Below are positions 8,203 through 59,809 of a stretch of 64,000 bases of DNA, one piece after another; the first letter of the stretch is position 1, and each line of letters begins with the position of its first letter. The notes under the pieces are model-generated. The model was not told the origin of the DNA and did no database searches. It saw nothing but the letters and a program-made list of their open reading frames with translations. The translations under genes and the position numbers were made by a program. The stretch is from Anadara kagoshimensis (lineage: Eukaryota; Mollusca; Bivalvia; Arcoida; Arcidae): positions 15,869,460 through 15,933,459 of the forward strand of contig CM037871.1 in NCBI GenBank assembly GCA_021292105.1. Reading direction: 5' to 3'.

Positions 8203-8253
<51 letters not shown>

Positions 8254-19507: not shown

Positions 19508-19945
19508 CTTTTATTTGAGCCGGGAAGATAATTTTAGATGACAACTGAGTATAAGACTAGAAAATAAACGTAATGAAGGAATACCTTAATTTGTACATGG
19601 ACTGGTATGGCTGCCTTTGATTATATATTAAGTGTAGATATTGTCAAGTGTAATAATTTAAAAAAAATGATTAGATAATTACGTCATAAGTTTTATAAAT
19701 TGGACTTTACTAAGGGGCGTACGACTTGACTGTATATGAATACAATTAATGGTGAGTGTTTCTTATTTTGATATCATTGCCTTTCAATACTTATGCAGCT
19801 GAAAATCAAATATGAATAAGTTTTACAGGAACTAATAGGTAAACATTTACACTATTCAATACGTTTTACAGGAACTAATAGATAAACATTTACACTATTC
19901 AACTCCAAAATTGTTCAATGCGTTTCATGGCTTTGTTATAAGAAA
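18055..19945 (+). repeat. Array unit 9, short form with 43-bp internal duplication
   Basis: The segment starting ttttacaggaactaatag occurs twice, at 19821 and 19864, in this unit. Unit 11 carries the same duplication; unit 10 between them does not. The unit also has many one-base deletions relative to its neighbours between 18400 and 19400. Confidence 0.9.
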
Positions 19946-39399: not shown

Positions 39400-39620
39400 T
39401 TTTCTCTTTTGTTCATGTCAGCAATATAGTTGATTCATCTACTGATGGTGTATTGTTTTACAACGAAGGTGTTATTGTAGAACTTGTTTTCTCACGGGAT
39501 TTTATTCAACAAAGCCATCTGCTTACTAATAAAATGTTCAATTGAGGAATGTTGACGTCTTAGCTAATATCAAGCCTTCAAAGAGTTTTATAGCCTTCAT
39601 CACAATATTGTTAATAAATC
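39400..39620 (+). repeat. Penelope-type 3' region relic
   Basis: The sequence ttacaacgaaggtg, ttgctaataaa-like cttactaataaaatgtt, tcaaagagttttatagcc and atcacaatattgttaa matches the order of the RT element's tail at 42380-42490. It lies just outside the Harbinger right end. Confidence 0.65.
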
Positions 39621-39818
39621 AAAAACAAACATATCATTTCATGTCTATTTTACAACTTAAAGCTTCAAACTTAAAAGTTTAATGTTTAAAAACCTGAACT
39701 TCCACTGGAGGAGTGAAATCGGGTACAATATCATGACGGATATAAATATAAAAATTGCATTTTTACTCAAAATTAGCCTACATATATTTAACGTTTAAGA
39801 TAAATTATTCAATTTTAG

Positions 39819-40041
39819 GTGAAATACAATGGGAGTCGACATTGGGACTTATCGATCCCGAATTGGCCATTTTAGGCAGGGCTATGGTTTGCAAGTTATT
39901 CAGATATTGGTTACATGCAATTTTACCGGGTCACTGAAAATTATTGGGAGTGTAGTCTTTATTGGAACTCTACTGTTGATGGCCGGAATAGAACCTAACC
40001 CTGGTCCTCTAACTGATGAAAAAAGCGAGGACACGTCAAAA
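39819..40041 (+). CDS. First coding exon of the very large GTPase gene: hydrophobic leader plus 2A-like motif
   Basis: An acceptor (attttag, 39812-39818) precedes the exon and a donor (gtatgt) follows 40041. The ATG at 39829 gives 71 codons ending in phase 0. Residues about 35-51 are hydrophobic (IIGSVVFIGTLLLM), then AGIEPNPGP, with NPGP at 57-60. Class 2A peptides have the consensus D(V/I)ExNPG then P and make the ribosome skip the Gly-Pro bond. Here the Asp is Gly, so activity is uncertain. In sea-urchin NLR proteins similar leaders act both as signal sequence and 2A. Assignment to the GTPase gene rests on phase: it joins 41059-41119 and then the linker exons without a shift. It could instead be the leader of a lost retroelement ORF, since 2A motifs are also common there. 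Confidence 0.6.
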
Positions 40042-40659
40042 GTATGTTTGATATTTACAAGTGTAAATACGAAAAACGCAATATTACATAAAAGGATTTA
40101 ATAATATTCGACAAAAAGTAAATGTTGTTATTTGAAATTATAATATTTATTCACTTATTCACATTTTGTAATTGCTCTGGTCTTGCGTTATTAATGTTAA
40201 ACGTGTTTTTTATAAAAAATATATAATAATTCAAAATTAATGTTTCTAAACTGATGGAGAGACATTAAAATGTCTACAGTTTCCAGTTTTATTAGACATG
40301 TCTTATGGGTCACTATTATATTTTTGATACAATAATATGTTTCGAAAGCGACAAAAAGTTCCGCATTCGCATGGAAAGCAAATAAAAAAAATAAAAGTGC
40401 ATAAGATATATAAAATTATTTGATTTTTCAGATGGCCTTTGTGATTATTCACCTTCTTTGCCTTTTGGCTTGGTCATAAATGGTAACGTGTAATTGTTCA
40501 TTGGTTTAATTTGTAAAAATCACAGCCTGAATTTATATTTTATTGCTAATTTTTAACAGTTTTGAAATATTCTGAAAAAAATATGTTTAAATGTTTACTA
40601 CTTTAAATAACTTTCATTTTCTTATTGTCAAATTTCCTTTTTAACAACAATATCTATAG

Positions 40660-40930
40660 AAAAGCATGTTCCCACTACTGGAACTTTATACAACGAAGGA
40701 AGCTTACAAATAAGTTTTTAACAGACTTTGCAACTCTAGGCTAAAAAACCCTCAAATAGATTTATGATCGCCATAACAATATTAACTATGATGTGTCTGT
40801 TTCCAAATCTACCTCGGATACAATTGACGTCCTTTAGTTACGTGGCGGGTGTAGCTAGTTGAAAAAATCGGGCTTATAATTCCAGTTTTTACTTTGCGTT
40901 TGGATTGCGACTTGGGTGTTAATTTGTAAG
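40660..40930 (+). repeat. Penelope-type 3' region relic in intron
   Basis: Contains ttatacaacgaagg, aataagtttttaacagac, gccataacaatattaac and gggtgtagctag, in the order of the tail at 42380-42600. It lies in the intron after the 2A-like exon. Confidence 0.7.
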
Positions 40931-41058
40931 TTTGTTTGTAAAATGATAGTTGTATTCTTGTATTGTCTCATTCAGATTTCTCAATCATTATTGGTCACAT
41001 GTTTTCTAAGTACGTGTATGTTATGAAATATCAAATATTATTTTGATTTCTATTCCAG

Positions 41059-41119
41059 GACATGTCATTAAGACATGACAAGGAACAGGACACTCAGTTA
41101 CAACCACTGCAATATACAG
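41059..41119 (+). CDS. Second coding exon of the very large GTPase gene (61 nt)
   Basis: The acceptor is ttgatttctattccag and the donor gtacga. Read in phase 0 it gives DMSLRHDKEQDTQLQPLQYT and leaves one base (g), that is phase 1, which is what the linker exons at 48729 and 49543 need. It is charged and Gln-rich. No homology is recognised; support is splice sites and phase. Confidence 0.5.
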
Positions 41120-41149
41120 GTACGATTATTTTTTTTTATTCTTTTACAA

Positions 41150-42720
41150 AAACGGTAACCAAGATACAAAAACTTAGAAATAAGTGCTAAACAGGAATTC
41201 TGGTTATCTTGTAAACACCATACGGACTCGACATAAGGACATCAAAGATAAGAGATTCTACCTTGAATGTCTTATTAAGGAGATTGGTTTCGATAGTATA
41301 TCAAATAACCCTGCATATTCTAGAACTAATTTTACCAAAGATGAAGTTCTTTCCAACCATAGGGGAGTTCTCGAGTCTTTCGGTATCAATCTTAAAGAGG
41401 AAGATCTTGATCTTCCTTACTTGTATTGGATTCCTAAACTCCATAAAAATCCATACAAGGAAAGATATAAAACAGACTCATCTAAATGTACTACTAAATC
41501 ATTATCGGTAACTCTAACACAAATTTTGACAATCGTCAAAGATGGTCTTCAGTCTTATTCAGAAAAAGTCTATTCTACATCTGGAATCAACCAAATGTGG
41601 ATTCTCAAAAATTCTAAAGAACTGCTTGAACATCTTGCTTCTAATACTTTATCTCATGTAAAAAGTATAAAAACATTTGATTTTTCTACACTATACACCA
41701 CTATCCCTCATTCTAAATTGAAAGAACGTCTTAAAGAAATTATTCACTTGTCTTTCTTCTACAAAAAAGGTAAGCCAAGATACAAATATCTGGTGCTGAA
41801 CAGGGATTCTGGTTATTTTGTCAAGCATCATACGGATTCCAAACAAAAATATACTGAAGATACCATCAACAAAATGTTGGAGTTTTTGATAGATAACATA
41901 TTTGTTGTGTTTCGTAATATAGTTTTTCAGCAAACAATCGGTATACCAATGGGTACAAACTGTGCACCATTGCTTGCTGATTTGTTTCTTTATTCTTACG
42001 AAGCAGAATTTATGCAGAACCTTGTTAAATCTGGAGAGAAAAATGTCGCCAAATCATTCAACTCAACATACAGATACATAGATGACGTTCTGTCTCTTAA
42101 CAATCCTAAATTTGGAGACTATGTAAATGTCATCTATACTAGTGAGCTTGAAATAAAAGACACGACTGATTCCTTAAGTTCTGCTTCATATTAAGACTTA
42201 TACCTGAATTATGACGCACAAGAAAGGCTACATTTTAAACTTTATGACAAACGTGATGACTTCAATTTTTCTATTGTCAACTTTCCTTTTTTATGCAGCA
42301 ATATACCTGCTTCTCCTGCTTATGGTGTATTTGTTTCCCAATTATTACGCTATGGTATTGTTACCACTACGGGGACTTTGTACAACGAAGTAGGCTGCTT
42401 GCAAATAAATTGTTGACTCGGGATATTGCAAGCCTAGGCTTATCAAGGCCCTCAAAAAGTTTTATGGCCGTCATCACAGTATTGTTGATAAGTTTGATGT
42501 CTCTGTGTCCAGGATTGCCTTGGATATATTTGACGTCTCATAGTTCCATGTTCCTTTCACACAATTTTGATTAAACACGTGACGGGTGTAGCTAGCTAAA
42601 CAGGAGGTGCTTACCCTAACGGAGCACCCGGCCTCACTTCCCTGGTGGAAGTTCACGTGTCTAACCTAACTTGTCAGTTCCAAAGTTTTTACTTTGCTTC
42701 TGGATTGTGATTCGAAAATG
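41150..42720 (+). pseudogene. Penelope-like (YIDD) reverse transcriptase element, 5'-truncated and broken
   Basis: The 336-codon frame 41184-42194 holds the RT fingers (LPYLYWIPKLHKNPY), motif A (KTFDFSTLYTTIPHSK), motif B (GIPMGTNCAPLLADLF) and motif C (YRYIDDVLSLNN). A TAA at 42192 replaces Leu in ASYLDLYL, and the same frame continues with YDKRDDFNFSIVNFPFLCSN before further stops. The tail to 42720 ends in the gtagctagctaaacaggaggtgc block whose relatives are scattered through the window. No GIY-YIG endonuclease is seen. The first ~75 bases (41155-41230) duplicate an internal RT segment (41775-41845), so the apparent ORF start is a rearrangement. It lies in sense orientation inside the GTPase gene's long intron. 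Class assignment to Penelope-like is from motif style. Confidence 0.75.
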
Positions 42721-43255
42721 GATAAGTATGTTTGTTTTTGATTTTTAAACTATCAACAACATGTTGCTAGTTTGATTGACATTACTTGGACACGGGTTGG
42801 TATGTTTGTTTTTAATACTGTTATATAATAGACTGTTTTATCTTTATTTACTATATACTATTATTGATGAAAGTTTTACTAAAAAGTTTCAAATTGATAA
42901 TTACGCATGCATATGGCCCTACGCGATTGGACGCGATTAAACATGATTTACAATTGAGGTGACATTCTTTTTAATGATCTGTGGCTGGTAAGACTTAAAT
43001 GGTTATACTTTGCCACAAAATGGTATAAATTTGCGTAAATTCACGAATGAATATATATATAATTGTATGTGACAAAATTGTTTTATTAATAAATCTAATA
43101 ACTTCTTTTACTAAAAATTAAGTATTTAATCTTTGAAGAAATTAAAACAGTCAATTTTAGAAACAGAAGGATGAACCTTCAAGTTATATCTTAAAATTAA
43201 AAGATGACAAAAATTAATATACCGAATTTAGGAAGTATAATTAATGTTTTTGCTT
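42721..43255. other. AT-rich intronic sequence
   Basis: No gene, repeat or motif recognised. Confidence 0.5.
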
Positions 43256-44602: not shown

Positions 44603-45264
44603 ACACCATTCACTCGTATATACGCAGATTACACAGGTTGACCAACTTTTTATAAACTGTTTAACTAAATTAAATATGGGTATGGTATATTTTAGTCCGA
44701 CTAATCAGACCACTAAACCCCCATTTTAATTTTTGACTTGTTGGAGGTTTGTGGTCTGACAGCTTTCAATTATTGAATTCTTGAAATTTCTGGCGAAAAC
44801 GGCAGAAGCGAAAAGAAGCGTCGATAACTTCCAGTATTTCCTTACCTCGCTCTTGCTGACAACATGGAACACTTCCTAAAACATTATTCTACCGATCCAT
44901 TCTTAACTTTTAATTAAAAGTCATTGATATCGGTAGAAATACAAGGTTTTCTGATGTCTCTTCAGCTCAATTTCACTTTTGCATCGTGAAGTCATTACTT
45001 ATCTGCATTGACCAATCCGATCGCGCATTGCATTCAGATGGTGTGCTTTCTACCAACTCAGTAGGCAATAATTTTGTATTATTGTCAGAAATATACTATA
45101 ATTGTCTAAATTTCCTGAAAGTTAAAATTTGAAATTTCTCAAAAACTAAGGTATACTCCCTCATGCAAATTATTTCCTTAGCTTAATTTGGTAAAATATA
45201 TATTGGTCCTTTGGGTAAGTTTTCAACATCTTCAAAATAATCTTGGTTTCATAATTTTGGTCCA

Positions 45265-45310
45265 AGCACTACTGATGAGGAATTGTATTCCGAAACGGCC
45301 GTCTAGTGCT
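45265..45310 (+). ncRNA. Type I hammerhead ribozyme, copy 1
   Basis: Stem I pairs AGCACTA (45265-45271) with TAGTGCT (45304-45310), 7 of 7. The core CTGATGA is at 45272-45278. Stem II pairs GGAAT with ATTCC (45279-45283, 45287-45291) around a TGT loop. GAA is at 45292-45294. Stem III is the self-complementary ACGGCCGT (45295-45302), and C45303 is the cleavage-site base. Every universally conserved core base is present. The tiny stem III is typical of hammerheads in Penelope elements and animal retrozymes, which are thought to cut efficiently as dimers. Confidence 0.9.
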
Positions 45311-45604
45311 GTAAAAATTAAAACTGGTATAATATGGAATTTAAACCCCTGAGCCGATATCTCTTCTGGTGGCTGGTGCCCCGAGGATATCATCAACTCA
45401 GTAGGCAATAATTTTGTATTATTGTCAGAAATATACTATAATTGTCTAAATTTCCTGAAAGTTAAAATTTGAAATTTCTCAAAAACTAAGGTTTACTCCC
45501 TCATGCAAAGTATTTCCTTAGCTTAATTTGGTAAAATATATTTTAGTCCTTTGGGTAAGTTTTCAACATCTTCAAAATAATCTCGGTTTTATAATTTTGG
45601 TCAA

Positions 45605-45650
45605 AGCACTACTGATGAGGAGTTGTATTCCGAAACGGCCGTCTAGTGCT
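45605..45650 (+). ncRNA. Type I hammerhead ribozyme, copy 2
   Basis: Same fold as copy 1, 340 bases downstream: stem I AGCACTA/TAGTGCT, core CTGATGA (45612-45618), stem II GGAGT/ATTCC with one G-U wobble, GAA, stem III ACGGCCGT, and cleavage-site C45643. The only change, A to G in stem II, keeps the pairing. Confidence 0.9.
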
Positions 45651-46089
45651 GTAAAAATTAAAACTGGTATAATATGGAATTCTAAAGATGAAACTGCGAG
45701 TTTCATCATCCAAAGGCAAGACGCGATCTGATTGGTCAATGCAGATTAGTAATCTCTTCACGATGCGACAGAGAGCTGGAAAGACATCAGAAATCTTGTG
45801 GTCCCACCGATATCGAAGGATTTTAATTAAAACTTAAGCCTGGCTCGGTAGAATAATGTCTTAGAAAGTCTTCAATGTTGTCAGCAAGAGCAAGGTAGGG
45901 AAATACTGAAAGTTATCGAAGCGTGCTTTTGTTTCTGTCATTTTCGCCAAAAATTTCAAGAATTCAATAATGAAAGTTGTCAGACCACAAACCTTTTTTT
46001 AAAATGTTTTGATTTTGTGACATATATACATACAAATACAATTACAATCACCAAACTTTATCTAGTAACTAATACATGTACTTTAATAA

Positions 46090-47400
46090 CATAATTACAA
46101 TTACTTAAATACTACATAAAAAGTTGTGTATATACTAATTAAAACATTACTAAGTATAAGACTGGGAGTTAATGATTATGAAAAATTTTTCCGTAAATTT
46201 CAGCCAGTATTTCCTAAAAAGATCATTTTTTTGACTTTTTAACATTATGTCTTTTTCTAAAAGCAAATTGTTTCTTATATAGGTTTTGAGGCTACAAAAA
46301 TTGATTATCTTGTTATTCAATTTTGCCTGATAAATGTAAAATCTAGTTATTAATATTTTGAAATTTAAAGGTTTATATTTTTGAATAATCTTTGAAATTC
46401 AAAATAAAGCAACTTTAGGGTCCATTCAAAACGGTTCACTTATATTGATATTGACGAAATCTTCGAGACAATTCCATAGATCGACTATCAATCCACACTC
46501 ACAAAAAAGATGAAAAATAGGTTCGGGTACTTTTTTACAAAAATAGCATCTATCACATTTTCCAACCCACAAAAATTAAATAACATTGCTTTTAACTCTA
46601 CAATAAATTTTTCCGTCTGGTTTGGTTAAGTAATAAAAAGATAATTGAGTTTATTTATAATCAAACTCTTTATAACTGTAATTTTTCCAATAAATGTTAA
46701 TGATCTAATTTTTCTTGCTTTAAGAATATTATTGATTTCACTTACTTGTTTGTTGTAATTAATTTTAACTATATCATCTATAACTATACTTAACTATATA
46801 CTCAATAGTGTAAATTTATAGACGATGGTATTTTTCAATCTATGGTTAAAGGTTTCGCCACAATATTTTCTGCATCCGATCCAAATAGTTTTACATTTAG
46901 AAATATTTATAGAAAGACCGGAAATGTTAGCAAAAATATCAAGCGTTTTTATTGCTTCGTCATAAGAATTTTTCGAACCGTCAAGGATAAAAGTAGGAGC
47001 ATTAGCAAACTGTGATGTTTTATGTTCAACTTCATTTGTTTTTATTCCTTTTATTTCTATATTTTCTCTTATCAAAATTCTTAGTATTTCAGCACATAAT
47101 AACAATAAATAGCTAGAGATGGGGTCACCCTGTTTCACTCCTTTGTTGATTTTAAATGGAGCTGATAAAAAGTTATTCTGTCCTTTAGATGATTTGATGT
47201 TCGTATCAACAACTTTAATCCATTGTTTTATTGATGGACCAAAATTAAAAAAGTCTAAAACACCATGTAAAAATTTCCATAACACAGTATCGTAAGCTTT
47301 TTGAAAGTAAATTAAAAGTAGCATGCCTGGTATGTGGTTTTGTTTAGTATGTTCTATAATATTATAAATGAGTCTAATATTTCCCCCTATATATCTCCCT
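46090..47400 (-). pseudogene. LINE-type reverse transcriptase, 5'-truncated, catalytic motif lost
   Basis: On the minus strand: NIRLIYNIIEHTKQNHIPG (about 47390), FQKAYDTVLWKFL, FKINKGVKQGDPISSYLLLL and SQFANAPTFILDGS in the frame 46794-47324. After stops the C-terminal part follows, FIGKITVIKSLI and a zinc-knuckle-like CDRCYFCKKVPEPIFHLFCEC (split here at about 46540). The order fits a non-LTR retrotransposon RT with a C-terminal zf-RVT-like domain. The catalytic F-A-D-D box has become FANA, and there is no endonuclease, so it is a dead 3' fragment. Its 3' end nearly abuts the foldback element. Confidence 0.8.
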
Positions 47401-47880
47401 TAGGCTAGTATAATTCTATTCCAATTGTTCTTTATTTATATTATTTCAACCTGTATGTAAACGACACCTGCCCATAGAGGCCACTTTTACCTGTTCCCTC
47501 GGTTGGCTGTATATCTGATGTATTCAGAATGCAACAGGGCCCAGATGTAAAGCGTAAAGTGGTTAATATGAACAGTTAAAGCCTGTCGAGGATTGCCGCG
47601 GCTCAGTTGCAATTTTGGTTAAAACATGATAAAGTAGTAGACAATATGGACATAAAGGGACAACGTCATTCGCGAGGCTGTTAACCCGAGTTTGATATTG
47701 CTGGTTATATTGAACTAAGCCCGGTGGACGAGAACTAATGTGTCCCCCGTTTAACTCATACACAGTGTAGTTAAGTCTCAAATATTTACATATTTAATAA
47801 TTAAGATAAAATAAAAGTCTGAATCGATAACACAATCCAGAAACATAGTAAAAAAAATTTGAAAATCGCAAGTTAATTTA
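47400..47880. other. Intronic sequence without a recognised gene
   Basis: More G+C-rich than its surroundings between 47460 and 47720. No coding or repeat identity could be assigned. Confidence 0.45.
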
Positions 47881-47884
47881 AACA

Positions 47885-48180
47885 TGTAGACTTACACAAG
47901 AAAAGTGAGGCTGAGTGCTCCGGAAGAGTAAGTTTCTCCTGTTAAGCTCGCTACAACCGCCATGTGTGTAATCAAAATTTAGTGGAACATGGAACTATCG
48001 GAAGTCAAATATATCCTTGACAATTCTGAACACAGATACATGAAACTTATCAACAATACTGTGTTGACGACCATAAATTTTTTGAAGGTCCTGATAAGCC
48101 TAGGCTTACAGTATCACTGTATCATCAATTTATTTATAAGCAGCTGGCTTCGTTGTATAAAGTTCTTATAGTGGGAAAAA
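47885..48180 (-). repeat. Penelope-type 3' region relic, antisense
   Basis: Read in reverse it matches 42400-42640 over most of its length: taagcctaggcttatcagga, gtcaacacagtattgttgat, ggatatatttgacttcc and the gtagc/ggagaaac tail block. The same tail is in sense orientation at 40660, 41150 and 60885. Confidence 0.75.
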
Positions 48181-48728
48181 GAACTACTATAGCATGAATT
48201 GTGAAAGAAATATACCATAAGTACCATGTCTGTCATCTGAATAAGGGGAGATAATTGTATCATAGATAAATAGTATTTGAGTAATGCATTTTAAATTCTA
48301 ATTAAACATACACATCCATGTCTAAAATACAACCCCATAACAAAGTTAAACCTTTGAAGCTGAGAAACTATGTTAAACACGTGAACGTCCAGGAGGTAAG
48401 TAAAGAAGTGCGCTCGGAAGGGTAAGCATCACCTCATTAGTTAGCTAAATCCCAAACGCGCGGAAACGAATGATTATATTGACGTGCAGAATGTAGACAA
48501 TGCAATACCAAGATAACAATCGATTCAAAAAAATATAAGATCATCCAAACATCAAATCAAATAATATTTGGAAGGTTAATTAAGTAGTTGAAAATAATCA
48601 ACTTTATACTTGATACAGAATCTCTGTATGTTTTGTTTTTGCTTCGCTACATAAAACCGTTTTCTAATAGTTTTCATTGTTAGTAGAATGAATTCGGGGA
48701 AGTTTTTGAGAATCTATTACAATTTCAG

Positions 48729-52000: not shown

Positions 52001-55000
52001 GTAACAAGGAAAATATGGAAAAGAAAACGACGAATGTTATGAACCCGCGTGATACAGTATTGAAAAAGTTTCAACTAGAGAAGTGGTTTCCAGGTAAAAT
52101 TAAGTTACAAGACGTAATGCAAATCATTGAAGATAATGAAATTATAAATATGTCAGATATTCCTTGGCTAGTATTGCGAAAGTTAATAATGCTTGATTTT
52201 AGAGCTAGGGATATTCTACTTTCAGAATCAATGAAACAGGTTAAGCAATCGACTAAAGTAGAAAGCCAAACACTGCCACGAAAACAAAAAAGACCATTTC
52301 TTGAAAAGTCTGAAGCAATAAATCCATTAGATTTTTTTCTTGTATTGTTTAGTTGTTGTAATCATTCATTACAGCAAACACTTGTAGAGAAGTTGTACAC
52401 TTGTCGCCTTGCAATTCCATTTTGTATCATTCAAAGTTACACACAGACACTTCAATTTCCTTTTTGGTGCATCCGTGGTCTTGAAATTGAATATTTTTCG
52501 AAGGAATGGGTGACTAATTTGTCTACTATTGACCTTCCAATGAATATAGTGTCGTTTATTAGACTGAATCGCCCATCAATTTCTAAATCCAAATACTTAA
52601 ACTTGGTATTAAATGAGGAACATCACCAAACATTCCTTGATAACGACTGTCCTTTTGGAAAATCTAAAAAAATACTTTCAGATGGTTTACTAGAGGCCGC
52701 ATGGTTTCTACCATCTGGGAAAGAAACCCAAATATTTTCAAAGCTATTAATGTTTCTGAATTTGCGGGGAAATGCTAAGGACCATAAGAAACAATTGGAA
52801 ATGTTAAAAGCAATATCTTGTGTATTTGTGGTCTTTATCAATATCGAGGATTTGAAAGGTGAATACTTTGAAACCCTAGAACAGATTCACAAATCAAATG
52901 TGCCTGTTATTCACGTTTTTACATCTCCAGAAAGTAATGAAAACGAAAATGAATTACATTTGGCAGAGTATGAGGAACGGATCCAAAAAATAAAACAAAA
53001 TACAGAAGATCTCCCGATCGTATATGTAACCGATGACAATACTACATCTGATATAAAAATTGAAGTTCGAATGTCAATCAATGATTGCTTAAATGGAACA
53101 ACACGTAAAACATTGTCTGACGTGAAACAAAGAACCACGCAATTAGGCATTGATTGTGACGAAGACTGTATTGAATGTGCCAAAGGAAAAACACTTGCTG
53201 AGAAAGTAATATCAAAAATTGAGAATGTTACCTTAGAAAAAATGAAAGAAGAGACAGTTCCAACCCAAGTCAATTATTGGGAAAAGTATACAACACTGCT
53301 CAAACAAAATCACAAATGCAGTGAATCGGTAAACAAAACCACAGAAACTGCTAGTCGGATGGATGAAGCATTGCAACAAGTAGCCAACATAAGTAATACC
53401 TTTACCCCATTGATGAATTTATTCACTGAAGTGATACTAGATGCAACCTTAGATTCTCAAACTATTTTTTATTTCATACAATGGTTGAAATACTTTCTTA
53501 ATGACCGATCAAAAAAGCAATTACCTGTCTTGAGAGAAAAATACCATAAAGCTTGGCAAGACGTAAAACAAGCAGAGAAAGGGAATGATAAAGCAAAAAT
53601 AAAACAACAAAAAGTACTTGCTAACGCTGCAGAACGTGCACTTGCCGATGCATCTTTTGGCTTTGAACATATTGTCCGAGAAATGGGTCATTATTTTGAG
53701 GCAGCATATTTAAATTCAAAACCACAAAATTGGGAGAAGATCAAGCTATTTCCAAAGATTACAGCAAAACTTCTTATCTCAGGACAGTCAATAGAATTAA
53801 TGGATGGCGATACAGCAAGTGTATCTATTAATTGGGTTAAAGCTGTAATGGATGAGACAAGAAATATGATCGGTAATGTTAAGGTAATAGCATTGTCGAT
53901 CGTTGGTATACAGAGTTCTGGGAAATCAACATTGTTAAATACAATGTTCGGTTTGAAATTTTCAGTAAGTGCAGGCAGATGCACAAGAGGAATATATATG
54001 CAGCTCATCAAAGTACATGACAATTGTAAATTAAAAAATGTAGATTATGTCATTATATTAGACACGGAAGGATTAAGAGCGCCTGAACTTGCGGACAAAA
54101 AACACGATCATGATAATGAATTGGCTACTTTTGTCATTGGACTTGGGGACATCACTATAGTCAATGTTAAAGGAGAAAATTATTCAGACATACAAAACAT
54201 ATTGCAAATAGTTGTGCATGCATTTATAAGATTGAGACTTGCAAATAAATCATTGAATCTTAACAAAGCTTGTACTTTCATACACCAAAATGTCTCTACT
54301 GTGAATGCTGCAGAACAATTAAGACAAGGTCAACAAAAACTTGTGGATATTTTAAATGAAATGACAGTCCAAGCAGCAGAGGAAGAAAATATTGCTGACA
54401 TATTTTTGTTTGAACAGGTGATAAATTTTGACCATGGACATACGTGGTATTTTTCCGATCTATGGAGAGGTGATCCGCCCATGGCTCCCTCAAATACCGG
54501 ATACAGTGAACATTGTGAAAAAGTTAAAAAAGCCCTTTTTGGCGACATAATCAAAGGTAGAAGTGGCTACATTACTCTAAATAATATGACCCAGCACATT
54601 GTAGATTTGTGGAATGGGATATTAGGCGAAAATTTTGTTTTTGGCTTTAGAAACAGTCTAGAAATTAAAGCTTATAATGAGATGGAAAATCTTTATATGA
54701 GACTAATTTGGAGTCAGGAGAGTCTTTTAGCGGAATGGACACAGAAAAAGGCATTAGAATGTAACCGTTATGACACAAGTCATGAACTTGTGGAATTTAT
54801 ACATCAAATAAGAAATGAATGTAAAAAAGTAGCAATTAAAAAACAGCAAGAAATTATGGTTCAGTTTGAGCACTTTTTTGAATCCCATCAACTTAAAGAT
54901 ATCTCAATGCGGTGGAAAGATATAAAAATAGCAGATATGAATATGCGAACAACTGAGCTCATAAACAGGACTTGTACCGAAATATCAAATATTGAGTCCC

Positions 55001-56832
55001 AGAAAATATTAGATCTTAAAACAAGAAAAACCCAAGGTTTACACCAAGCACAAATCAACACCGAAGCAGAAAAGTTGGCTTCACAATTCAAAGGAGAGAA
55101 ACAATCAGAGAAGGAACTTACCGACATTTTCGATGCTATGTTCGATGAGTGGCAAAAAGAACTTCAAGACGTACCTATTACCTTTGAACCGGTTATAAAA
55201 ACTATCAAATCGTATTTAACGGATAAGCTTTCGTCAGATAGTTTAATCCTTACGTCTACAATATTGATTTACCCTTTAGAACGAGAACTACAACATGAAC
55301 ATCTAAATGGAAGCTTATGTGTAACTGACATGTCAGACGATTTTATCAGTGTAAAAAACCTTTTAAAAAGATGGACGAATCAAATATTGCCAAACGATGA
55401 TAAATACAAAACAGCTGTTTTAAATAGGATCAATGTCTTATTTCAAAGTATTGATACAAAATTAAATCATTATATGCTGACTAATGATAAATTTCGTCCT
55501 TCGTTTGTGAATGAAATTTTGCAAATTTTACTAAATGGAATAAATGAATATAACAGCAACAAAGATGAAAAGTGTACCATAACAACAAAGGGTAAAATCT
55601 TCGTTATAGTACATGCTTTCCGATTCGCTAGACCAGTTTTTGAAAAAATGAATGCACGATTTGAAGAAAGCCATGGACTGAAATCAAAACTTACGCTATA
55701 CAAAAAAACAGCATGGAAATTATTTAAAGATATCGTTGAAAAGAAAAGTGAGGAAGAGATATTTACGACCCAGTTTTGTGACTGGATATATGAACCAATA
55801 AAAGACACTGTCTCTACGTTAATTCCAAATAAAGTCGTTAAGAAAATTGTACAGGAGAAATTCTCAAGTTCAAAGCATCAACTAATATTTTATATACTTG
55901 ACAAACTTGCAAATAAGGAGGATTTTCATTCATATATGGAATATATCTCGGATCCCTATCTGTTTGCTTTGAACTTGGTCACAGAAAACACTAACATGAT
56001 TTTATTCAATGGGCCAACATTCATGTATAAAAACTGGGCCATACCTCATATACAACAGATAATTAGCGATCTTAAAATTTGTATTTCTGAATCTACGAAA
56101 ATAATTAAGAACAAAGATAATTATACAGTAAAGTTTTGGTTAGAGGACGTCAAAGGAAGACTGAAACACTTAGTTATTCCATCTATGTCAATGCGCCATT
56201 TACTGAATCAGAAAAGGTATGACTTTCAGAGAATAGAAAAGCTATTGATGAAAAAAACAAAAATATTACAAAAACAACTAGAAGATCATTTTATATCCAT
56301 AACAATACAGAGTATTAGGTGGGATAGTCCTACACCTTATGAAAGCGTAATGGATCGAATCTGGGGGTGCAAAGCATTATGTCCTTTCTGCAAAGAACCT
56401 TGTTCGAAAACGGATACAAATCACTGTTCAACGAATGAAGCTCACACATGTTTACAACACCGTATCCAAGGAGTAGCAGGAGTACATGAAACATATTGTT
56501 TGGATATTGAGTCGTGTAATTTTAGTGTTCAGATGCTAAAAAGCACATTTATTTGTAGTGGAAGTTGGAAAGAACAATGCAAATTATGTAAAGATTCTGA
56601 TAAATATAAATGGCATTTGTTCACTGAATATAAAAAAAGTTTTCCTGAATGGGATATCGTGCCATCCCCTAACATGGACTCTTCAACTTATTGGAAATGG
56701 TTCATTGCAAAATTCGAAGACAAACTTGTACAACACTATGCAATAAAACATCCTGACCCTGAAACACTTAGCGTTTGGCGTAAAATAGATAAAAAGACGG
56801 CATTAGAAAGTTTGAGAAGTGTTTATGGTTAG
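52001..56832 (+). CDS. GVIN1-like: Interferon-induced very large GTPase (GVIN/VLIG, URGCP-like), large terminal exon
   Basis: The acceptor tgcgttttag ends at 52000. The exon enters in phase 1 (G/GT AAC AAG), matching linker exons C1 and C2; the first internal ATG (52015) opens 1,605 codons to TAG at 56830. Numbered from that Met: the N-terminal FQLEKWFPGKIKLQDV and IPWLVLRKLIMLDFRARD (about 16-66) match the conserved head of this family. The G domain has the P-loop GIQSSGKST (631-639), RCTRG as switch I, and DTEG (683-686); no N/TKxD is seen, HQNVS (757) lying in that region. A long helical region follows, and the C-terminal Cys/His cluster starts CPFCKEPC (1456-1463). One giant coding exon is characteristic of the family. 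Vertebrate members are interferon-induced cytosolic or nuclear proteins linked to immunity; function in invertebrates is unsettled. The frame is intact. Confidence 0.95.
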
Positions 56833-58469: not shown

Positions 58470-59800
58470 AATATATATATACGAGACTTGCACATTTTGT
58501 AAATTTTAACCAATCGCATACGCAGCTAAATAAGACAAGAGCTATGATGTTTGACAAATATATTTTGTTAATTGTGGGTTAGAATTTGGTTGATTGATGT
58601 TAAGAAATTGACTTGATATCATTTAAACCATCTTAGGAATATCTAAGATAAAGGTCCATGTTAGCTGTTGTATTTTTGCAACTTGATCAAGTTTGTTTTA
58701 ATTTGTTGATAAGATTATTTACTAAATTGTGAGTAATAATTTTGGTCATATTTGTAAATATCCTTTTTTTAAATATTTGTACATGTATAATTATGTAAAT
58801 GTAATCATGATTTAGACGTCGAGTGCTCGCTTGGGTACTATCAAGTTACACACCGTTGGTATTGTTATTATTAAATTATAATAGATATTTTTATGTCTCG
58901 ACGCTGGGTTATTCAAACAGTGAGTTTTCAATCATTTGATTTTAGTGCTGAAGTAATGGGATGGAAATATATTCTCGGTGTAACGTTGTCTGATATTAAA
59001 ATCTAACTAAAACATTAAGAATAACCAATTCGAATACTTTTTTATAATATATTTTATTTGATTTGAATGAGAAGGGAGATAACTGTTTCGCCAATATACA
59101 TTTGAACATTTTTGTAAAATTTAACCAGACATGTTTGCAGCTCAATGAGACACCAACTATGATGTTTGGCAGATACATTTATTGATTTTTTTGTTAGAAC
59201 TTGATTGACCGAAGTTTAGAATTATATTTGAATGTAAAATGACACCCATTATACTGTTATACACTATAATGTAAAGTTTCAAGTTTACACACTTGCAAAA
59301 CTTTACATTTATTTAGCAATTGGTTATTTTTTATTTCCTTTGTTCATTTGTTTTTTATTAATTGTAAATAACGTCTTAGGTCATATTTGTAAATATACTT
59401 TATGATATGTTAATAGATTTAATAATTTTGGTCCAAACACTACTGATGATGAATTTCATTTCTAAACGGCCGTCTAATGTTGCATAAGTACATAATATGC
59501 AATCACTCTGTAAACAGAATCTGGATTTTGACATCGCGTAGTCGATTGATTGCTATTAGGTCATATATTTCCCACAGACCGTTGTTTATTTTTAAATACT
59601 AATAGATATTTATTATACATCTGAAATGTATTTCGAACAATGTCATCATTCAATTATCGGATTTTAATGTTTTAGTGATCAAAGTATATATTTAGTCGAT
59701 ATGTTGTCTGCACTCAAAATCTAACCCACAAGTTCAGAATAGCCAATTCGAATACTTTATTTTGAATATTTCATTTGATTTGCATTAGAAGGGAGATGAC
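58470..59800. repeat. Diverged tandem duplication of ~720-bp segments, interleaved
   Basis: Matching blocks include aaatctaac followed by agaataaccaattcgaatac (58995-59040) against aaatctaaccc and agaatagccaattcgaatac (59720-59755), then gagaagggagataactg against tagaagggagatgactg. Also ggtcatatttgtaaatat at 58743 and 59380. Another block (cagctaaataagacaagagctatgatgtttgaca, in parts) recurs at 58525 and 59138. Confidence 0.65.
59436..59481 (+). ncRNA. Decayed hammerhead ribozyme (retrozyme relic)
   Basis: It aligns base for base with the copies at 45265 and 45605: ccaaacactactgatga and then aaacggccgtcta are kept, with flanking aataattttggtcc and ataatatg also shared. However, the G of the GAAA core is T, and the first stem II pair is lost (T against C). 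It should therefore be inactive. No second copy lies 340 bases away, so it is a solo relic. Confidence 0.75.
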
Positions 59801-59809
59801 TGCTTTGCT

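Follow-up and report, generated by a model that had tools for sequence, protein, structure and literature searches.

Animal non-LTR retrozymes have been described as short, non-coding tandem repeats of low GC content that carry type I hammerhead ribozymes and exist as dimers to multimers in thousands of copies, and circular RNAs have been reported for them in coral, mussel and axolotl (PMC7229834). The families of Mytilus galloprovincialis are made up of repeats of 350–390 bp that together bear about 5,000 type I hammerheads (PMC7229834). According to a 2020 review from the same group, copying of a circular template would lead to cDNAs that exceed one unit; the review also presents the repeats of animal retrozymes as having no conserved motif that points to a helper element (PMC7761336). 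Plant LTR retrozymes are also non-autonomous and delimited by hammerheads, with circular RNA intermediates in plants, but they are described with type III hammerheads, LTRs, 4-bp target duplications and units of about 700 bp (PMC7229834).

We studied a stretch of 64,000 nt from the bivalve Anadara kagoshimensis (the window), which contains a tandem repeat that agrees with the animal non-LTR retrozymes in the sequence traits listed for them above. Its 340-bp monomer with 33% GC lies within the approximately 150–450 bp and below 50% GC given for that class. Target duplications of the class, when present, exceed 4 bp; around the window array, 3–5 bp are duplicated. The class is also characterised by self-cleaving RNA that is expressed as linear and circular monomers. 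The repeat length sets the family apart from those of the mussel, by description rather than by sequence comparison. The type I topology and the 340-bp unit do not agree with plant LTR retrozymes. Animal retrozymes lack LTRs, a primer binding site and a polypurine tract; in the window, we saw no flanking direct repeat that resembles an LTR. Animal retrozymes are thus already known. What is added here, relative to the published accounts that we consulted, is that insertion ends define a single putative start site of reverse transcription together with a conserved stem-loop. In the openly accessible literature searched, we came across no account of a defined start of reverse transcription in animal retrozymes.

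A sequence-only reading of the window had noticed two intact type I hammerheads 340 bases apart. This observation is confirmed: a pattern scan of the window with CTGATGA-N13-GAAAC-N4-GTH gave matches without mismatch at 45272–45303 and 45612–45643, spaced by exactly 340 bases. With up to one mismatch allowed there are 3 matches in the window, compared with 0.02 expected from shuffles, and the third (59443–59474) is a decayed copy. The first hammerhead occupies 45265–45310 (+), with a predicted cut after 45303, and the second 45605–45650 (+), with a predicted cut after 45643. The complete core, 7-bp stem I, 5-bp stem II and minimal stem III that had been claimed were all found again on re-reading the letters. 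In the first copy, stem I pairs 45265–45271 with 45304–45310. Stem II is closed by a UGU loop and contains one G.U pair in the second hammerhead. Stem III is ACGGCCGT, which within one molecule can form at most 2 bp under a GGCC loop; it is also a perfect palindrome, so that pairing between two molecules would be possible.

Covariance and folding analyses gave a more mixed picture. The Rfam type I check that had been suggested did not bear the motif out at the curated cut-off, as nothing in the window reaches the gathering score of Hammerhead_1 (RF00163, 34 bits). A permissive search with the same model listed the second hammerhead at 21.1 bits (E 0.053) and left the first unlisted. Genome-wide, the model gave 0 matches, yet it also gave none in any of 14 control genomes, and this search is uninformative. 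The minimum-energy fold of the first hammerhead contains stems I and II plus an outer helix past an internal loop, while that of the second keeps stem I and loses stem II. When the family majority monomer is folded as a circle, the pairs of stems I and II reach probabilities of 0.69–0.96. The circular monomer of the window has a folding z of −1.15 and is not unusually stable.

The tandem repeat extends over 45054–45681 and amounts to 1.85 copies of the monomer. Tandem Repeats Finder reports a period of 340, 1.9 copies and 96% matches, so the claim that the hammerheads delimit a 340-nt tandem monomer held. Monomer 1, in the 5′ part of the array, spans 340 nt (45054–45393, +); monomer 2 spans 288 nt (45394–45681, +) and terminates at the family's fixed 3′ end, position 288. 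Identity between the two monomers is 97% over 288 nt, and relative to the monomer the array is shortened at its 5′ side.

The array is flanked symmetrically by arms of about 290 bp that belong to an older inverted-repeat transposon (left arm 44745–45043, +; right arm 45704–45994, −). The arm family is abundant, with the best 40 regions scored of 1,304 candidates genome-wide. Such symmetry might suggest that the array is the core of the transposon and that the two are mobile together. We regard this as scarcely credible, since two paralogous loci (L056 and L057) carry the uninterrupted, empty target and the arms were not detected in the 20 other array loci compared (L031–L050). Comparison with these empty paralogs reveals a target-site duplication of TTCTA, or of CTA if both T belong to the element, at 45048–45052 (+) and 45680–45684 (+). 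Judged from these sequences, the window array sits inside an inverted-repeat DNA transposon that was there before it.

The third match in the window lies in a decayed short relative at 59418–59482 (+), in which the GAAA of the hammerhead has become TAAA. The decayed hammerhead is part of a 65-nt match to the family at 86%, and it sits where an older degenerate repeat exceeds its neighbour copy by about 85 bp. This repeat comprises two degenerate copies of about 615–720 bp at 58488–59808, the second of which contains the decayed hammerhead as extra sequence; by eye, the 3′ end of the decayed copy resembles that of the retrozyme family. Four features were not part of the sequence-only reading: this third copy, the position of the array within an inverted-repeat element, the truncated 5′ side and the fixed 3′ end.

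Elsewhere in the window, (ATA)n tracts recur every 1.86–1.91 kb or so between 8205 and 25165 (at 8205, 10115, 11997, 13873, 15748, 17610, 19470, 21375, 23253 and 25165), and an identical 43-bp repeat is found at 19815 and 23604. This region is probably a tandem of units of about 1.88 kb. An unbroken frame of 1,605 aa at 52015–56832 (+) carries URGCP and URGCP-like GTPase domains (Pfam).

Far from lacking further copies with a conserved core, a case for which the sequence-only reading had allowed, the motif has 4,688 exact matches in its own genome (2,400 plus 2,288; 1.115 Gb in 36 contigs searched), compared with 0 for the reversed control. In IMG/VR, the core pattern was unmatched. Among those listed genome-wide, variants of the core look like one-sided decay of the stems. 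The genome-wide search for the 340-bp monomer that had been suggested likewise returned many dispersed tandem arrays, and core matches and arrays are spread over many contigs. In this search the best 40 regions of 2,926 candidates were scored (the window, L031–L050 and L058–L076); extra loci (L051–L055 and L084–L092) were drawn from pattern matches. Together with the low GC content, these counts support the interpretation as a retrozyme, with self-cleavage as a prediction.

The longest array (L059) has at least 11 monomers, as it reaches the edge of the fetched stretch, and diverges internally by only 0.13%. However, for one contig 100 exact ribozyme 24-mers were listed, and only 13 of them have a listed neighbour on the same strand within 700 bp, which indicates that most copies lie outside exact arrays. 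Three loci (L051, L052 and L055) are single copies shorter than one monomer. Stem-loop matches without a listed hammerhead belong to the same family in the three cases checked (L090, L091 and L092), and six matches to the monomer body without one (L084–L089) all carry the monomer, with the exact core missing. The family thus appears to consist of arrays plus, more often, single shortened copies.

To map the ends, the arrays of the window, L031–L055 and L058–L076 were aligned to repeated monomers. Six arrays that touched an edge were left out, which gave 41 arrays longer than 150 nt and clear of edges, or 39 insertions after L065 and L074 were dropped as duplicates. Since only best-scoring candidates were taken, this sample is skewed to young, long copies. 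The 3′ end lies at monomer position 287–292 in 36 of the 41 arrays (35 of 39 without duplicates) and is usually 288, which is 38 bases beyond the predicted ribozyme cut. Exceptional 3′ ends occur at 107 (L042), 236 (L037), 295 (L048) and 325 (L060); for L042, BLAST shows a jump and a final piece that ends at 289.

The 5′ ends, by contrast, are variable and span positions 1–334, and a uniform distribution is not rejected (KS p 0.11). Only one of 39 falls at 246–256, where a ribozyme-cut RNA would begin. In a first match list, many arrays seemed to start exactly at position 291, but longer flanks show several of them continuing, and 3 of 39 begin at 287–292. For the second copy of L054, the 5′ end is limited by the aligned stretch. 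In one array (L033), the 5′ end carries an inverted piece arranged head to head; inverted 5′ pieces are known from target-primed reverse transcription.

Exact 24-mers counted genome-wide, without selection of best candidates, follow the same direction. Counts fall with distance upstream of 288 around the monomer, from 4,060 (positions 224–247) through 3,340 (98–121) to 1,322 for the rarest probe (303–326), which sits 15–38 nt on the other side of 288. Conservation of the probes is similar across the examined arrays (123 of 151, 103 of 138 and 85 of 115, respectively), although older copies may differ in conservation from these. In 38 insertions (three without a 5′ flank), the maximum length of a string common to both flanks averaged 4.05, compared with 3.76 ± 0.14 when shuffled, and 5 of 200 shuffles were as high. 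This hints, weakly, that target-site duplications across insertions are short or absent.

In these respects the family resembles Penelope-like elements. Those of Anolis carolinensis (PMC11167929) and Adineta vaga (PMC3846280) are described with an internal start of reverse transcription downstream of the hammerhead cut, as is proposed here. Tandem and 5′-truncated copies, pieces in inverted orientation, target duplications that are short or missing, and AT-rich sites are further points in common. However, as described, Penelope-like elements encode a reverse transcriptase with an endonuclease, whereas the family studied here is a 340-nt non-coding repeat.

Two parts of the monomer stand out as least variable among the founders of 38 arrays. 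Minority calls number 6 of 1,695 in the ribozyme (212–257) and 3 of 1,644 in segment 289–340, compared with 1.3–3.3% in the five remaining segments. Variable columns make up 3 of 46 in the ribozyme and 60 of 294 in the rest (one-sided Fisher p 0.014), and among 295 sliding windows, 17 show as little variation as the ribozyme or less, its own counted. Segment 289–340 and positions 1–12 form a predicted stem-loop region (45342–45405, +) directly 3′ of the inferred start of reverse transcription. The fold of 45342–45410 has −21.4 kcal/mol and z −1.73, with 10 of 200 shuffles folding equally well, which we consider a modest signal. The in vitro-studied Penelope-like element is also reported to require RNA 3′ of its start (PMC11167929), a suggestive parallel with the stem-loop.

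We considered whether the repeats might be ordinary satellite DNA that grows by unequal exchange, with fossil ribozymes that play no role in spreading. Unequal exchange also yields homogeneity within arrays, and two duplicated loci (L045 and L074) that have both flanks in common differ by one monomer, which indicates that array copy number changes after insertion. However, the dispersal, the fixed 3′ and variable 5′ ends, single copies below one monomer and the empty target site require insertion, and the ribozyme is less variable than the monomer body. We therefore judge an ordinary satellite very improbable. L045/L074, L037/L065 and L066/L073 are same-contig pairs with an identical or near-identical 5′ flank and the same 5′ end; these three pairs are duplicated stretches with arrays of different length.

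Monomers within an array are far more alike than monomers of different arrays. Divergence within arrays has a mean of 1.0% and a median of 0.44% (244 pairs), compared with 3.8% and 3.6% between arrays (10,239 pairs, duplicates included). Two subfamilies are separated by five linked sites, and of the 37 arrays in which two or more monomers could be assigned, none contains clear monomers of both; L040 has an intermediate haplotype next to a differently labelled first partial monomer. Mixed arrays are rare at site 65 (0 of 37 vs 24.8 in shuffles), site 22 (1 of 36 vs 24.0), site 284 (1 of 37 vs 28.2) and, to a lesser degree, site 166 (5 of 36 vs 26.8). Given that monomers are alike and subfamilies are not clearly mixed in 37 arrays, each array seems to derive from one template sequence.

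The state of that template can be narrowed further. A linear monomer cut by the ribozyme (5′ end at 251) and copied from 288 would yield only 38 nt of cDNA. All measured arrays exceed 38 nt, which suggests that the ribozyme junction of the template was closed, either by ligation or by never having been cut. In the second case, the template would be a linear multimer, transcribed from an existing array and left uncut, which would be copied from its last position 288 through several monomers. There is precedent for such a template, as the Penelope-like element of the anole mainly used unprocessed RNA and its ribozyme mutants inserted normally in vitro, according to the account in PMC11167929. 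Additionally, of 203 differences within the 38 arrays, 28 equal the founder base of another array, while random placement predicts 17.3 ± 3.9 and 1 of 200 shuffles is as high. The excess argues against a template that is strictly single, unless mutation recurred at some sites, and both it and the five arrays mixed at site 166 could be inherited template variation. On the other hand, arrays are mostly homogeneous, even at the length of L059, and active hammerheads should cleave long multimers. Given homogeneous arrays, a circle would be a likelier template than a long uncut multimer, an argument that is weaker if parent arrays are themselves homogeneous. On balance, we consider copying from an uncut multimer, the chief alternative, rather unlikely.

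The reading that we prefer, with a probability of roughly 70%, is that of an animal non-LTR retrozyme in which a self-cleaved and ligated circle is reverse-transcribed from position 288, for at least one lap, by the enzyme of another element. Transcripts would cleave themselves at the hammerheads, and the 340-nt monomer would be circularised by a host ligase. The foreign reverse transcriptase would initiate at position 288, beside the conserved stem-loop, and go round the circle once or more. The resulting cDNA would then be inserted with little or no target-site duplication, in the case of the window copy into the older inverted-repeat DNA transposon.

As for the enzyme, we searched for GIY-YIG loci and found at least 50 matches in the genome (150 of 248 candidates scored). 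None of the examined flanks of seven such loci (L077–L083) contains a sense-flank hammerhead of the retrozyme type; at one of the seven (L081), a retrozyme hammerhead copy is opposite in strand to reverse-transcriptase-like frames. The helper element was not found among the GIY-YIG loci inspected. GIY-YIG matches often form inverted pairs 2–5 kb apart, and at L082 a stretch of 648 bp is repeated inverted at 97%. By eye, the frames of L077 (G000 contig C22) resemble a bacterial-type GIY-YIG nuclease gene, and the small contig that carries it may be a bacterial contaminant or symbiont.

A single reverse transcriptase family (YIDDVLSL) is represented by broken pieces on both strands of the window, at 39431–42748 and 47831–48447. 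This family, which we take to be Penelope-like, reaches 26.3 bits with Pfam RVT_1, under the cut-off of 29.6. Its 3′ end near 42743 recurs in nearly all 20 fetched loci, and for that reason it was rejected as a candidate partner of the retrozyme. Part of another, LINE-type reverse transcriptase is resembled, by eye, by a 176-aa frame at 46794–47324 (−).

The former family is present as fragments both in the window and at 9 of the 20 array loci searched, which could suggest that the repeats belong to a Penelope-like element as its pseudo-LTRs and do not form an independent family. Such elements are indeed known to contain minimal hammerheads of type I and to occur as partial tandems, as described in PMC7761336 and PMC11167929. 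Nevertheless, 3′ fragments of that family are near-ubiquitous in the 20 loci, and neither distance nor strand is constant among them. At two GIY-YIG loci that have long frames (L082 and L083), a pattern scan shows no hammerhead-like motif, and monomer matches are no better than E 0.25. No reverse transcriptase with a GIY-YIG endonuclease is coded in the window array (frames of at least 90 aa) or in the array of L035, where all frames of at least 60 aa are antisense (up to 106 aa) or run past the array end. A pseudo-LTR origin thus seems highly improbable.

More tentatively, and at somewhat less than even odds, we suggest that a Penelope-type enzyme recognises the stem-loop and starts just 5′ of it, and that multi-lap copying of single circles yields the homogeneous arrays, with the circle as the transposition intermediate. 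If this is true, the circular RNA would be an intermediate of transposition and no by-product, and the genome would record multi-lap copying. The putative start and the conserved stem-loop could serve as bait for finding the helper enzyme. They also offer a sequence test of the circle as template, which could be repeated in other published animal genomes, and the way in which such repeats spread would thereby become testable.
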